A DNA stretch of 47,202 nt from Natrinema versiforme JCM 10478. GTDB lineage: Archaea; Halobacteriota; Halobacteria; Halobacteriales; Natrialbaceae. The notes under the pieces are model-generated. The model did no database searches, was not told the DNA's origin, and worked only from the letters and a program-made list of their open reading frames with translations. The stretch covers positions 4,696 through 51,897 of the forward strand of contig NZ_AOID01000060.1 of assembly GCF_000337195.1 (NCBI RefSeq), in the 5' to 3' direction. A program made the translations under genes and the position numbers. Within the stretch, counting starts at the first letter, position 1, and every line of letters begins with the position of its first letter. Shown piece after piece: positions 786 through 46,037 of this stretch.

Positions 786-1706
786 CTACTCCTGGTAGGG
801 TGCACAGACCTGCTCGAGTCCCTCCTCGAGCGAGATATGAGGCTCCCAGCCGACTTCCTCGCGAATCTTGCTCGAATCAGCGCAGGTGTCATGGACGTAG
901 ACGCTGTCTGGAATCGGATTCTCGACGTACTCCGGCTCGATATCGGTGTTGAGTTGGTCGTTGAGCATCTCGACGAGATCGTTGAAACTGTAGGCGTCAC
1001 CGGTACCAAGGTTATAGACGCCCGTGAGTTCGCGGTCAGCGGCGAGTTCGAGACCGCGGACGATATCGTCGACGTGTGTGAAGTCTCGTGTCTGTGTGCC
1101 GTCGCCGTAGAGGACTGGTGAGTCGCCGCTGGCGAGGTCGTCGGCGAACTGCGCGATCACGTTGGCGTACTCGCCTTTGTGTTCCTCGGCCCCGCCGTAG
1201 CCCTGATAGACCGAGAAGAAGCGCATCCCAGCGACATTCATGTCGTAGTGGTTGGCGAAGTACTCCCCGTAGCGCTCGCGCGCCAGTTTCGAGGCTTCGT
1301 AGCCAGTGTTGACCGAAACCGGCATATCGACTGGGGAAGGCTCGGTCTGGTTGCCGTATATGGATGACGTAGAGGCATAGACGACCGTTTCACAGCCGTC
1401 TTCGCGGGCCTGTTCGACGACGTTGACGAAGCCCTCGACGTTGACGCGTGCTCCCTTGGTGGGGTCGTCCTCGTGCATCGCGTATGAAGACAGTGCTGCC
1501 AGGTGGAACACAACATCGACGTCAGTCGGCAGATCGTCCTCGAGGACACTACGGGTGTGGACCGTAACGTCGTCGTCTACGTTTTCGGACGTCCCGAGAT
1601 ACTCATCATCGATCACGATCACATCGTTGTCCTGTGTGAGGTGGTTTGCTAGGTTGGAACCGATGAAGCCTGCGCCACCCGTCACTAATACACGTTGGTC
1701 GTTCAT
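786..1706 (-). CDS. NAD-dependent epimerase/dehydratase (GalE-like extended SDR)
   Basis: This 306-residue extended short-chain dehydrogenase has a Rossmann nucleotide-binding loop at the start (TGGAGFIGS, residues 9-17). The Ser region STSSIYG is followed by the catalytic YEASK (Tyr-x3-Lys) around residues 137-141. The length and motifs fit nucleotide-sugar 4-epimerases and 4,6-dehydratases such as UDP-glucose 4-epimerase. The exact sugar cannot be read from sequence. It acts in the cytoplasm on a nucleotide sugar and is the first gene of the glycan locus. It points toward the window's left end, away from the nucleotidyltransferase that follows. The ATG is unambiguous because the binding loop begins a few residues after it. 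Confidence 0.88.
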   Translation of the reverse strand: MNDQRVLVTGGAGFIGSNLANHLTQDNDVIVIDDEYLGTSENVDDDVTVHTRSVLEDDLPTDVDVVFHLAALSSYAMHEDDPTKGARVNVEGFVNVVEQAREDGCETVVYASTSSIYGNQTEPSPVDMPVSVNTGYEASKLARERYGEYFANHYDMNVAGMRFFSVYQGYGGAEEHKGEYANVIAQFADDLASGDSPVLYGDGTQTRDFTHVDDIVRGLELAADRELTGVYNLGTGDAYSFNDLVEMLNDQLNTDIEPEYVENPIPDSVYVHDTCADSSKIREEVGWEPHISLEEGLEQVCAPYQE

Positions 1707-1881: not shown

Positions 1882-2067
1882 CTACGCGTCCGGCTCGGTC
1901 GGCCCGACGATAGGGATCTTAGTTGCCGTCTCTTCGGGTGCTTTCTTCTCCTTCCCAGTTGGCGAGTAGTGTTGTCGCACGTACTCTCTACCAAAGGGGT
2001 GTTTCAGGAGACCCCAGTAGCCCATCGTCCGTTCCAGTCGGCACATCACCCGTTTGTGAGCGCTCAT
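1882..2067 (-). CDS. Small YWGLL-motif protein, copy A (unknown function)
   Basis: This 61-residue basic protein carries the string YWGLLKHPFGREYVRQHY, then SPTGKEK and a loose polar tail. It is supported as a real gene because a diverged relative is encoded at 43753-43929. The two share a K-R near the N-terminus, R-L-x-R, Y-W-G-L-L-[KR]-H-P-x-G-R, then Y-x-P-T-G-K with the same spacing, while the tails differ. It has no signal peptide and no long membrane segment; a short amphipathic helix is plausible. No Shine-Dalgarno sequence is visible, so leaderless translation is possible. I do not recognise the family and propose no function. Neighbours are nucleotide-sugar genes. Confidence 0.65.
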   Translation of the reverse strand: MSAHKRVMCRLERTMGYWGLLKHPFGREYVRQHYSPTGKEKKAPEETATKIPIVGPTEPDA

Positions 2068-2321
2068 GGCTATCTAAGACCACGGAAGATCCTTATCCGT
2101 TTGCAGCGTTTTGACCTGCGTATCGAGACGTGAGTTGTGGTTCTCGAGCATCATGTCCCCGTACTCAGGGGAAAACCGCTGTCGGACAGTTAGGGGCTCG
2201 AATCTTCCCTGTTCCCTTTGTGAACGAAGTCATGGGGCTGCATGAGAGACGCTCGAATTTCCGTATCGGTATCCTCAACATCTACCACCGCCGCTCGACT
2301 CGAGATTGAAGGCGTTGGTCG

Positions 2322-40212: not shown

Positions 40213-41508
40213 ATGACGGCGTTCGATCCCCACGACAGAGCGGGGCCGGCTGATGCACTCCCAGCGACGCCTGACCGGCCAGTCGAGGAACTCGTCGTCA
40301 CACCGGCCGATGATGTCTCGCCCACGCTGTCGATCGTCCTGCCGACGAAAAACGAGGCAGCGGGGATCGGCGAGTGTCTCGACCGGATCGAACGGGCGAT
40401 CGCCACCCTCGGCGTGCCGACGGAGATCATCGTCAGCGACAGTTCGACCGATCGGACGCCGGAGATCGCCCGCGCCCACGGCGCGACCGTCGTCATGCCG
40501 GACCGCCCGGGCTACGGCGCCGCGTACCAGCGTGCGTTCGAGGCCGCCCGCGGTGAGTTCATCGTGATAGGGGATGCGGATACGACCTATGACTTCGCCG
40601 CCATTCCTCGCCTCGTCGAACACCTCGTCGCGACCGACGCCGATCTGGTCCTGGGGAGTCGCCTCGCGGGGGAGATCGAGCCGGGCGCGATGCCCTGGCT
40701 CCACCGGTATGTCGGTAATCCATTGCTCACACGGTTTCTCAATACGTTCTACGGCACCGAGGTGAGCGACGCCCACAGCGGCTTTCGGGTGGTGACGCGC
40801 GCCGCGTTGGAGACACTCGAGTTGACGACCGACGGGATGGAGTTCGCCAGCGAGATGATCATGGAAGCCGGCGCCCGCGGGCTAACGATCGAGGAGGTCC
40901 CGATCACGTACCACGAACGGGAAGGAGAGGCCACCCTCGAGAGTTTCCGGGACGGCTGGCGCCACGTCCGGTTCATGCTCACCAACGCCCCGGGCTATCT
41001 GTTCTCGGTTCCTGGCCTCGGTCTGGGCGTACTCGGGCTTGTCCTCATGGGCCTCGTGGCGGCTGGTACGCCCGTCGGTGGCGTCACCCTCGGCGTGCGG
41101 TCGATGATCGCCGGCGGCGTGCTCGTCCTCGTCGGCTATCAGATCATGAGCTTCGCCGTCTTCTCGACCGTGGCGACGGATCCGATCCAACGGCCGTCGG
41201 ATCCGCTCACGCGATGGCTGAATCGGGCCCTCACGATCCGGCGTGGGGGTGTCGGCGGCTGCGTGGTGTTCGCGGGCGGAAGCCTCTATGCGCTGGCCTT
41301 GCTCTACAGGTGGCTGACGGCCGGCTACGCGACACTGCCGGTCGTCACCAGCGATATCGCCGCGCTCGTCGCCATCGCGTTCGGCGTTCAGACGGTGTTC
41401 ACCTCGTTTCTGGCCGCGATGCTGCGAGAGTCCCGGCTCGCCCGCACGCGGGCCAATGCCCGATCGGCCGCGGGGACGGACGGCCACGACCCAGCGGCGG
41501 GCGATTAA
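40213..41508 (+). CDS. GT2 polyprenyl-phosphate glycosyltransferase with membrane tail
   Basis: The 431-residue protein has a polar leader of about 35 residues, then the GT2 core: LSIVLPTKNEAAGIGECLDR, EIIVSDSSTDRTPEIA, GYGAAYQRAFEAARGEFIVI, the DxD-like metal site GDADTTYD, DLVLGSRLAGEIEPGAMPWL, and SDAHSGFRVVTRAAL. This is the dolichol-phosphate mannosyl/glucosyltransferase type. From about residue 260 four hydrophobic segments follow (for example LGLGVLGLVLMGLVAAG). Enzymes of this layout load a hexose onto dolichyl phosphate for use outside the membrane. It is distant from the main glycan locus and is flanked by IS and pseudogene debris. The SD is weak. Confidence 0.88.
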   Translation: MTAFDPHDRAGPADALPATPDRPVEELVVTPADDVSPTLSIVLPTKNEAAGIGECLDRIERAIATLGVPTEIIVSDSSTDRTPEIARAHGATVVMPDRPGYGAAYQRAFEAARGEFIVIGDADTTYDFAAIPRLVEHLVATDADLVLGSRLAGEIEPGAMPWLHRYVGNPLLTRFLNTFYGTEVSDAHSGFRVVTRAALETLELTTDGMEFASEMIMEAGARGLTIEEVPITYHEREGEATLESFRDGWRHVRFMLTNAPGYLFSVPGLGLGVLGLVLMGLVAAGTPVGGVTLGVRSMIAGGVLVLVGYQIMSFAVFSTVATDPIQRPSDPLTRWLNRALTIRRGGVGGCVVFAGGSLYALALLYRWLTAGYATLPVVTSDIAALVAIAFGVQTVFTSFLAAMLRESRLARTRANARSAAGTDGHDPAAGD

Positions 41509-43266: not shown

Positions 43267-43419
43267 ATGGGTGTCCTCGACGCAGTCACCGAGCGTGTTG
43301 CTGGCCGTAGCGACAGCGTCAGCCTGCACGAATGCCGTGACTGTGGTGTGATCCTCGAGTCCGCGGGGCCGGTGTGTCCGACCTGTGGATCCACAGAGAT
43401 CGCGTACTACGAGTGGTGA
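43267..43419 (+). CDS. Mini zinc-ribbon protein (50 aa)
   Basis: The frame encodes MGVLDAVTERVAGRSDSVSL, then HECRDCGVILESAGPVCPTC and GSTEIAYYEW before TGA. Two C-x2-C pairs 14 residues apart and the ending G-S-T-E-I-A-x-Y-E-[WF] match a recurrent haloarchaeal mini zinc ribbon. The N-terminal helix is amphipathic. Purines (gtggg) precede the ATG. The function is unknown. Confidence 0.75.
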   Translation: MGVLDAVTERVAGRSDSVSLHECRDCGVILESAGPVCPTCGSTEIAYYEW

Positions 43420-43752: not shown

Positions 43753-43929
43753 CTAGGTGTTCGAGCGGGTGCTAACAGCATCGGCGTTGGCCGGCGGGCC
43801 CTGGTCGCGGCGCTTCCCGGTCGGCGTATACTGCTTGCGGGCCGCTGCCCGTCCGCGTGGATGGCGCAGGAGCCCCCAGTAGAGTAGCGCGCGGTGGAGC
43901 CGTAATCCAAGCCGCTTGCGCCGGTCCAT
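43753..43929 (-). CDS. Small YWGLL-motif protein, copy B (unknown function)
   Basis: This 58-residue basic protein starts MDRRKRLGLRLHRALLYWGL and continues LRHPRGRAAARKQYTPTGKR, with a short polar tail. The start is fixed by a near-perfect Shine-Dalgarno (GGAGGTG) four bases upstream. It is a diverged relative of the protein at 1882-2067: K-R, R-L-x-R, Y-W-G-L-L-R-H-P-x-G-R and Y-x-P-T-G-K are conserved in spacing, while the tails are unrelated. Arg has replaced Lys at many positions. There is no signal peptide. No close co-directional partner is visible. The family is unknown to me. Confidence 0.75.
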   Translation of the reverse strand: MDRRKRLGLRLHRALLYWGLLRHPRGRAAARKQYTPTGKRRDQGPPANADAVSTRSNT

Positions 43930-43933
43930 ATTT

Positions 43934-43940
43934 CACCTCC
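43934..43940 (-). promoter_or_regulatory. Strong ribosome binding site for YWGLL copy B
   Basis: GGAGGTG on the minus strand, four bases before the ATG at 43929. It decides the start and supports the gene as real. Confidence 0.7.
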
Positions 43941-44240
43941 GTGTGGGAGACTCGTATACCCGCTACCTAACTGCTGACCGTGACCCAGGCGCTCCCCGCT
44001 GGCGCGGGGAGACAAGATCGTGGTCATGCGGTCGCGGCGGCCCCGTGGGTCGCCGGCGACCGGCCACAGCGAGCCGGCTGCGCGTGGCGGCGTCTCGGCG
44101 GTGGTAGGCCGTGTCCGGCCGCGCCCGCTCTCTCGTCGCGTCCCTTGTTGGAGCCGAGGCACTCCTGTATCCGGGTATCGGCCTCGAGCGCGTCGGGCCT
44201 TCTGGTATTCTCAAGGATCAGTAGCAAACCAGAGTGGCTG
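43941..44240. other. Non-coding stretch, nothing recognised
   Basis: The 300 bases between the YWGLL gene and the winged-helix gene contain no supported frame or repeat. Confidence 0.4.
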
Positions 44241-44546
44241 TCAGTCGTCCTGCTCGAGTTCGTTCGCATCGAGTTCGCCCTCGAGATACGCAATCCCCCG
44301 ATCAGTGACCCTGTAGTAGCCACGTTTCTCATCGATCTTCTCGAGCAATCCTGCATCGGCGAGTACGTTCATGCGCCGAGAGATGGTATTCTGACTTCGG
44401 TCTAACACACCGAGTTCCACAACGAGATTATACCAGATGGCAGTCGGCGGTAGCGCGATCCGATGGCCCGTGTCGGTCTCGAGTTCCTGAAGGTATTCTA
44501 AAATGGCATCGTCGGCCTCGTTCATCCATGATACACGGGCCCGCAT
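44241..44546 (-). CDS. PhiH1-repressor-like winged-helix protein
   Basis: The chosen start gives 101 residues opening MRARVSWMNEADDAILEYLQ, the typical beginning of haloarchaeal phage-PhiH1-repressor-like winged-helix proteins. ALPPTAIWYNLVVELGVLDR and SQNTISRRMNVLADAGLLEK form the helix-turn-helix, and GYYRVTDRGIAYLEGEL is the wing. A longer reading to 44582 is possible. It likely represses the divergent genes at 44774 and 45162, across an inverted repeat at 44690-44705. Such repressors are common in proviruses and plasmid-derived islands. Confidence 0.82.
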   Translation of the reverse strand: MRARVSWMNEADDAILEYLQELETDTGHRIALPPTAIWYNLVVELGVLDRSQNTISRRMNVLADAGLLEKIDEKRGYYRVTDRGIAYLEGELDANELEQDD

Positions 44547-44689
44547 ACCCCCGAAAATCATCTGATCGGTGATTAACTGCATCGGATCAGAAGCCTCCTG
44601 AGATATATGATTTAGATCTGGACCATATACACTAGATAATTAAGTGGCTCGAGTGCCAGTATATTTCTACGGAAGCTATACGCGGATTT

Positions 44690-44773: not shown

Positions 44774-45172
44774 ATGACGAACGACGATTCGCGGGGTCTT
44801 GAAAGCCCCGACAGACACGCATCGACGGAGACCGACCTGGACACGGACGCGGTTCGCGACCGCCTCGAAGCGATCACCGACCTCACCGAAACCCTCCTCG
44901 AGGAGGTCCGCCGAACCGGAGAGACGCTCGACGACGGGACGCGCCGCGACGCGACCCGTCGGCTGCGGGAGATCGACGCGGAGGCGAGACGCGTCGGCCT
45001 CGAGCTGTGTGACCGGCCGCTCGCCGAGAACCCCGCTACCCTCGTGGGTTGTGACTCACTTACGACGACGTATTCCGGCCCGGCACCGGGGGCGATCGAC
45101 GCTGCCGGATCGAAGCGCGCGGACAACCAACCCACCGGCGACTGCAATCGCGGTGATCGTGATGGCGAGTGA
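44774..45172 (+). CDS. Acidic helical protein of a mobile-element operon
   Basis: The 132-residue protein is acidic and helical in its middle (VRDRLEAITDLTETLLEEVR, then LREIDAEARRVGLELCD), with a disordered tail. No family is recognised. Its end overlaps the start of the next gene by 11 bases in another frame, so the two are co-translated. It is divergent from the PhiH1-like repressor, and the trio looks like a provirus or plasmid cassette. Confidence 0.65.
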   Translation: MTNDDSRGLESPDRHASTETDLDTDAVRDRLEAITDLTETLLEEVRRTGETLDDGTRRDATRRLREIDAEARRVGLELCDRPLAENPATLVGCDSLTTTYSGPAPGAIDAAGSKRADNQPTGDCNRGDRDGE

Positions 45173-46037
45173 GTCGGCCCGCGACGATATCGCGGCGCTT
45201 CGCGAGCAGATCGCGACCCTTACCGATCGAGTCGCCGAACTCGAGTCCGAGTGCGCCCGCAAGGACGAGCGTATCGAGAACCTCGAGGCCCAGGTAGCCG
45301 AGTACGAGTCCCAGACAACGGAAGCCGAACGCGCCGCCGAGGCGGCGCTCAGGAAGGCCGACGCCAACAAGGACCGCGTCCGCGAACTCCAAGCGCGGGA
45401 ACTCGAGAAGGGCGCCCACCTCCGGACCGACACCGTCGATCCCCATGAGGTCGACGTCGCCGGCGACCGCCTCGAGAAACTCGCGAAGGACGACGGCGAA
45501 ACCTACTACCGCGTCCCCGACTCGAGCGATCCGCTCGACCGGGGTGACGACGTCGCACTCGCCCACGGGGACCTGCTCCCCATCCAGCAACTGGCTCGCA
45601 TGGATGCGGACATGCGCCGGTCGGCGGCCAACTCGCTCCCGACGCGACTGGCCGCCAAACTCTGGCAGGCCAGAACCGATCCCGCCGTCGGCGACGATCC
45701 CTGGACCGACGGCTGCAAGTCCGTCGACGAGTACGTCACCGCCTCCGATCTCAAACACTGGATCCGCAGACAGGAGGACGGTATCAGCGAGACCTACGCG
45801 AAGAAACTCGTCTCCCGAACGATCGATGCCGTGCTTGACCTCTCCAAACACCGGCTAGCGGTCCGCAAACGGACCCAGCGCAAGAACGGCCTCGAGTACA
45901 CCGAACGTCGGCTGCTCCTGCCGGTCGACGCTGAGATCCCCGGTGAAAAGAGTGCCTCGAGACCCACTAATGAGAGTTCCTCGAGTAACATAGCAAAGAC
46001 GGACTCGAGCGGCCTGACTGCTCCCGGAGACAGCTGA
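45162..46037 (+). CDS. Coiled-coil protein of a mobile-element operon
   Basis: With the ATG at 45162 the protein is 291 residues. Residues 10-80 are a long heptad-rich coiled coil (LREQIATLTDRVAELESECA and onward to LQARELEKGA). The rest contains KLAKDDGETYYRVPDSSDPL, LPTRLAAKLWQARTD and a helix-turn-helix-like segment, DEYVTASDLKHWIRRQEDGI, then KKLVSRTIDAVLDLSKHRL and a basic wing-like RKRTQRKNGLEYTERRLL. It probably binds DNA as a dimer, perhaps in replication or partition of a mobile element; this is inference. The gene overlaps the preceding one by 11 bases. The ATG is supported by the overlap and by the loss of acidic composition upstream. Confidence 0.72.
   Translation: MASESARDDIAALREQIATLTDRVAELESECARKDERIENLEAQVAEYESQTTEAERAAEAALRKADANKDRVRELQARELEKGAHLRTDTVDPHEVDVAGDRLEKLAKDDGETYYRVPDSSDPLDRGDDVALAHGDLLPIQQLARMDADMRRSAANSLPTRLAAKLWQARTDPAVGDDPWTDGCKSVDEYVTASDLKHWIRRQEDGISETYAKKLVSRTIDAVLDLSKHRLAVRKRTQRKNGLEYTERRLLLPVDAEIPGEKSASRPTNESSSSNIAKTDSSGLTAPGDS

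Follow-up and report, generated by a model that had tools for sequence, protein, structure and literature searches.

Haloarchaeal genomes encode hundreds of proteins of fewer than 70 residues, most of them without known function. Two described systems come closest to the small proteins considered here. In Halobacterium salinarum, the bacteriorhodopsin-regulating basic protein Brb (55 amino acids, pI 11.4) is co-transcribed with brz, and activation of bop needs Brb, the zinc-finger protein Brz and the regulator Bat (PMC3184054). In Haloferax volcanii, deletion of the gene for the small zinc-finger protein HVO_A0556 results in more biofilm, loss of swarming and worse growth on glycerol (PMC6562870). 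The stretch of DNA analysed here, a window of 47,202 nucleotides from Natrinema versiforme JCM 10478, carries two small paralogous genes, copy A and copy B, which sit at the two ends of its surface-glycan region. They belong to an uncatalogued haloarchaeal small-protein family that is linked to surface-glycan islands.

A and B are real genes, kept by strong purifying selection. Copy B (43753..43929, minus strand; MDRRKRLGLRLHRALLYWGLLRHPRGRAAARKQYTPTGKRRDQGPPANADAVSTRSNT) is an open reading frame of 58 residues plus stop with an ATG start, as the initial annotation had described it. A diverged second copy some 42 kb away had also been claimed, and is present: copy A, a 61-residue open reading frame (1882..2067, minus strand), is the best match to B in the window by tblastn (E = 9e-12, 21 of 41 positions identical, ungapped), the second-best match beyond A having E = 8e-4. 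The two copies are the sole family members in their own genome. A 58-codon reading frame is by itself unremarkable in the window sequence; it is the match between A and B, together with the codon-position pattern seen with outside relatives, that argues against a chance reading frame. Natrinema pellirubrum DSM 15624 has a copy with 88% identity. Within the ungapped core, differences between B and its Natrinema pellirubrum relative fall 1/0/5 at codon positions 1/2/3, and those with Natrinema sp. SYSU A 869 fall 1/1/14 (p ~1e-5). The dN/dS ratio of B is ~0.04-0.08 relative to its two nearest relatives.

Copy B consists of a predicted basic helix, a YWGLLxHPxGR motif, a YTPTGK core end and a short variable tail. 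Both copies align with their relatives across the whole family core, M..RKR...R..R...YWGLL.HP.GR......Y[ST]P.G[GK]. Apart from divergent members, the family splits into two main clades, A and B, and A-clade relatives have a conserved tail. The split between these paralogous clades is old. In several genomes a single A and a single B are separated by 14-42 kb; overall, genomes with the family have 1-4 copies, which almost always lie in glycan islands. That the gene can be lost is indicated by frameshifted copies in two Natrinema genomes. At one other locus (G196:C1:237786-243803), three B-type copies are found within 6 kb; two of these, with a flippase-like gene between, are near-identical in protein (core dN 0, dS 0.31), which points to a local duplication.

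The family has no Pfam or NCBIfam model match at E<=1 and no PHROG match at E<=0.1, and in this sense the earlier view of an undescribed small-protein family is borne out. A comparison with solved structures gave no homologue and chance matches alone, mostly to PsbL. The further suggestion that the family is widespread does not hold: two profiles, run against 391 sampled haloarchaeal genomes, place it in 20 of these, and in 16 of the 125 from Natrialbaceae, to which the window belongs. Among plasmid records it is confined to two from Natrinema, and these show no annotation under the matches in a gene table that is incomplete.

The window is a surface-glycan island, with genes for nucleotidyltransferases, epimerases, a UDP-glucose dehydrogenase, glycosyltransferases, sulfatases and a flippase. 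Is this setting typical of the family? Glycan-synthesis genes are present within 5.5 kb at 21 of 23 A/B loci, as against 4 of 20 control loci, the latter picked by presence of the c12 gene described below (Fisher p ~2e-6, uncorrected for relatedness). Copy A adjoins a sugar-nucleotide epimerase gene (cluster c1; 786..1706, minus strand; Pfam Epimerase, E=1e-47), which is beside A in most relatives. The first large gene on the side of copy B away from its regulator neighbour encodes an AglJ-like family 2 glycosyltransferase (40213..41508, plus strand; TIGR04182, E=1.8e-47, below cut-off), and on the N. pellirubrum plasmid B has the same neighbour. Converging on copy B is a gene (43267-43419, plus strand) for a small zinc-finger protein of 50 residues (MGVLDAVTERVAGRSDSVSLHECRDCGVILESAGPVCPTCGSTEIAYYEW), DUF7129-like below cut-off.

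A search for fixed gene neighbours had been proposed in the initial annotation. Near A there is, besides the c1 epimerase, a gene for a zinc-finger protein of the HVO_A0556 family (NF041921). The HVO_A0556-type gene lies within ~4.2 kb of eight of nine A copies and 0.6 kb from the Halovivax copy, and in the six clustered loci it is on the same strand as A. That of N. versiforme is at contig position 2285-2446, just outside the window. Of 125 Natrialbaceae genomes, 112 have HVO_A0556-type genes, and most of these are without the small protein. As there are only one to four copies per genome, their linkage with A is much closer than chance. The linkage is inherited synteny, and by itself it is silent on contact between the two proteins.

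A second zinc finger, with a TVPWQxxIC motif, was considered as a fixed partner and rejected, as it follows the island and the cassette described below, not the small protein, and is also present in one control locus. Proteins of this type (37-49 residues, motif CPxCxx...TVPWQxDICxxCG) recur in glycan islands (loci L086:6056, L088:5595, L085:8246, L094:5719 and L148:4595, and near C60:55837 of the window's own contig); of two members that were tested, neither has an NCBIfam model.

Copy B adjoins a gene for a winged-helix (MarR-like) regulator (c11; 44241..44582, minus strand; PHROG 2440 transcriptional regulator, E=1.9e-25). The c11 gene is upstream and on the same strand in seven intact B copies, one of them with a gene between, and in one frameshifted copy. 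Divergent from the regulator is c10 (44774..45172, plus strand), a dispersed cassette member that encodes a small MSNDDSRGxESPDR protein, and with it the coiled-coil gene c12 (45162..46037, plus strand), with a conserved KHWIRRQEEGISETYAKKLVSRTIDAALELSK C-terminal part. The c10/c11/c12 cassette is dispersed across Natrialbaceae, has no Pfam or NCBIfam model at cut-off and has the appearance of a mobile or selfish element, so far uncharacterised. Do these three genes and B represent one unit? This was rejected: c12 is not specific to the family, being present in 85 of 125 genomes at up to 10 copies per genome, and B is carried by none of the 20 other c10/c11/c12 cassettes. B thus marks the island, not the cassette, and since the c11 cassette occurs without B, the adjacency of c11 and B may merely mark the island edge. 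The stretch that separates copy B from the regulator gene contains a perfect GC-rich inverted repeat (43990-44020; CTCCCCGC-TGGC-GCGGGGAG) without a T-run, possibly an operator or a terminator.

The sequences upstream of the two genes bear on how they are expressed. Four bases ahead of the copy B ATG is GGAGGTG (43934..43940, minus strand; coding strand ...CGGAGGTGAAAT-ATG), which had been taken for a perfect ribosome site. The letters are indeed present, but an alignment of upstream regions shows GGAGGTG to be confined, among the relatives, to the copy B of the window, and it is weak evidence of expression. A TATA-like element, TATACGA (43952..43958, minus strand), starts 29 nt ahead of the same ATG. 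Such elements (TATN, ATAA or CTAA) are found 26-30 bases ahead of the ATG in 20 of 23 A/B members, with at most five of the 23 in every other 5-base bin. Archaeal TATA boxes are located ~25-27 bases ahead of the transcript start. This spacing would put the transcript start at or near the ATG, and GGAGGTG outside the mRNA. The A and B mRNAs are therefore most likely leaderless as read from these positions, and GGAGGTG ahead of copy B is probably fortuitous and not transcribed. Leaderless transcripts are the majority in H. volcanii, where a 5'-UTR Shine-Dalgarno motif that was tested had no effect on translation (PMC3986360); in haloarchaea including Natrinema, very short leaders are common (PMC4574771). 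A textbook Shine-Dalgarno sequence in haloarchaea should not be counted as evidence of a gene.

Copy A is preceded by a conserved promoter block (2090..2142, minus strand) that spans ~-75 to -20, has a sharp edge at ~-75 and is common to A and its relatives; it contains an imperfect 12-bp direct repeat and a TATA-like element. That the block is an operator which A has in common with further genes of the island was considered and rejected, as it is present ahead of A copies only. A and B each appear to be transcribed from their own promoter.

At the protein level, the 40-residue core has a charge of +4 to +12 in nearly all members. The tail, mostly acidic, leaves the whole protein near neutral in most of them. 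The characterization as small basic proteins thus fits the core but not the whole protein. Structure prediction, also proposed at the outset, gave one helix at residues 3-22 in B and 3-21 in A, another that is short, and a tail in disorder, but at pLDDT 58-59; the models suggest a helix fold for the A/B core. The helix (z = +3 to +7) is followed by a hydrophobic ALLYWGLL, and its lipid-binding discriminant is high in nearly all members; its hydrophobic moment is modest (0.13-0.37). Of interest are divergent relatives in two haloarchaeal genomes (G390 and G368). Their core, RLxxLLxRWGLVxHPYGQEYAxxRYTLTGR, is that of the family (profile E ~1e-14 with A2), but they differ by an extra C-terminal transmembrane helix after the core and by the absence of glycan genes nearby. 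A carA-like gene and an AsnC/Lrp-like regulator, both named by eye, are found near these relatives, and this setting is conserved between the two genomes.

What might these proteins do? The reading that we tentatively favour, while rating it somewhat below an even chance, is that A and B act as small co-factors of glycan-island transcriptional control. The working part would be the 40-residue core, with its basic helix (~residues 3-21), YWGLLxHPxGR turn and YTPxGG/K end. B would work with the neighbouring winged-helix regulator, and A with the neighbouring HVO_A0556-type zinc-finger small protein, by analogy with Brb, which acts with Brz and Bat at bop; contact with a partner and an effect on transcription are both inferred. 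A narrower version, in which A and B are dedicated co-regulators that control the two ends of the island, one with the zinc-finger protein and the other with the winged-helix regulator, is more doubtful. Several points speak against a co-regulator: the C-terminal transmembrane helix in the two divergent relatives fits a membrane role better, the charge of the whole protein is near neutral in most members, the structure models are of low confidence, the bop loci searched gave no Brb homology, and there are c11 cassettes without B as well as HVO_A0556 genes in genomes that do not have the family.

A membrane role would mean that the basic, aromatic-capped helix lies on the cytoplasmic membrane face as a peripheral adaptor. 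There it would hold or tune one of the island's steps, be it that of a glycosyltransferase, an epimerase or a lipid carrier, with the transmembrane relatives as anchored versions. The helix composition, a basic segment followed by ALLYWGLL with a high lipid-binding discriminant, and these anchored relatives make an adaptor nearly as likely as a co-regulator, and the glycan-gene neighbours are also consistent with it. Yet the anchored relatives are not the ones near glycan genes, and A and B, with their own promoters, have no co-operonic enzyme. Further, the discriminant is charge-driven and the hydrophobic moment modest, such that a nucleic-acid-binding helix would score similarly. A short basic amphipathic helix encoded in variable surface islands would also fit a peptide with a link to surface variation that acts as a small toxin, as an antimicrobial or in defence. 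This is very improbable, given that a tight operon with an antitoxin-like partner is absent, that PHROGs, Pfam and NCBIfam give no match, and that two paralogues are kept together. The initial annotation had raised the prospect that both copies belong to dead transposons. IS elements near the N. pellirubrum copy, the frameshifted copies in two genomes and the dispersal of the c10/c11/c12 cassette are in keeping with a mobile-element origin, as remnant or as cargo, be it a dead transposon or a virus gene, in a variable island. Found instead were purifying selection and a few copies per genome concentrated in glycan islands; in addition, B is missing from all 20 dispersed cassettes, the two old clades have conserved promoters, no relative was confirmed on viral contigs and PHROGs gave no match. 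Such an origin is very improbable.

Whether co-regulators, as we prefer, or adaptors, A and B offer a testable link, as two selected paralogues at the ends of surface-glycan genes. The Haloferax namesake of the zinc finger near A influences whether cells form biofilm or swim. Should one or the other paralogue tune the island, this would provide a handle on archaeal surface-sugar switching.

How does the family compare with the two described systems? It shares with the HVO_A0556 family that both consist of haloarchaeal small proteins, encoded close together near copy A and the Halovivax copy. The sequences are unrelated, however: HVO_A0556-type proteins have two CxxC motifs and the A/B family has no conserved cysteine, and the former are present in 112 of 125 Natrialbaceae genomes versus 16 of 125 for the latter. 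With Brb, homology was looked for in eight bop loci, including that of a 92% bacteriorhodopsin relative, and no significant match to the family profile was found; the contig of the best match, with 100% bacteriorhodopsin, begins 125 bases upstream of the mature coding region, which left the true H. salinarum Brb outside the search. The settings differ as well, a bop cluster for Brb and a glycan island for A and B, and Brb is co-transcribed with brz, whereas A and B appear to have their own promoters. The relation to Brb is one of likeness, not membership: the proteins are haloarchaeal, ~55-60 amino acids in length, basic and formerly unannotated, and in both cases a small zinc-finger gene and a gene for a DNA-binding regulator adjoin.
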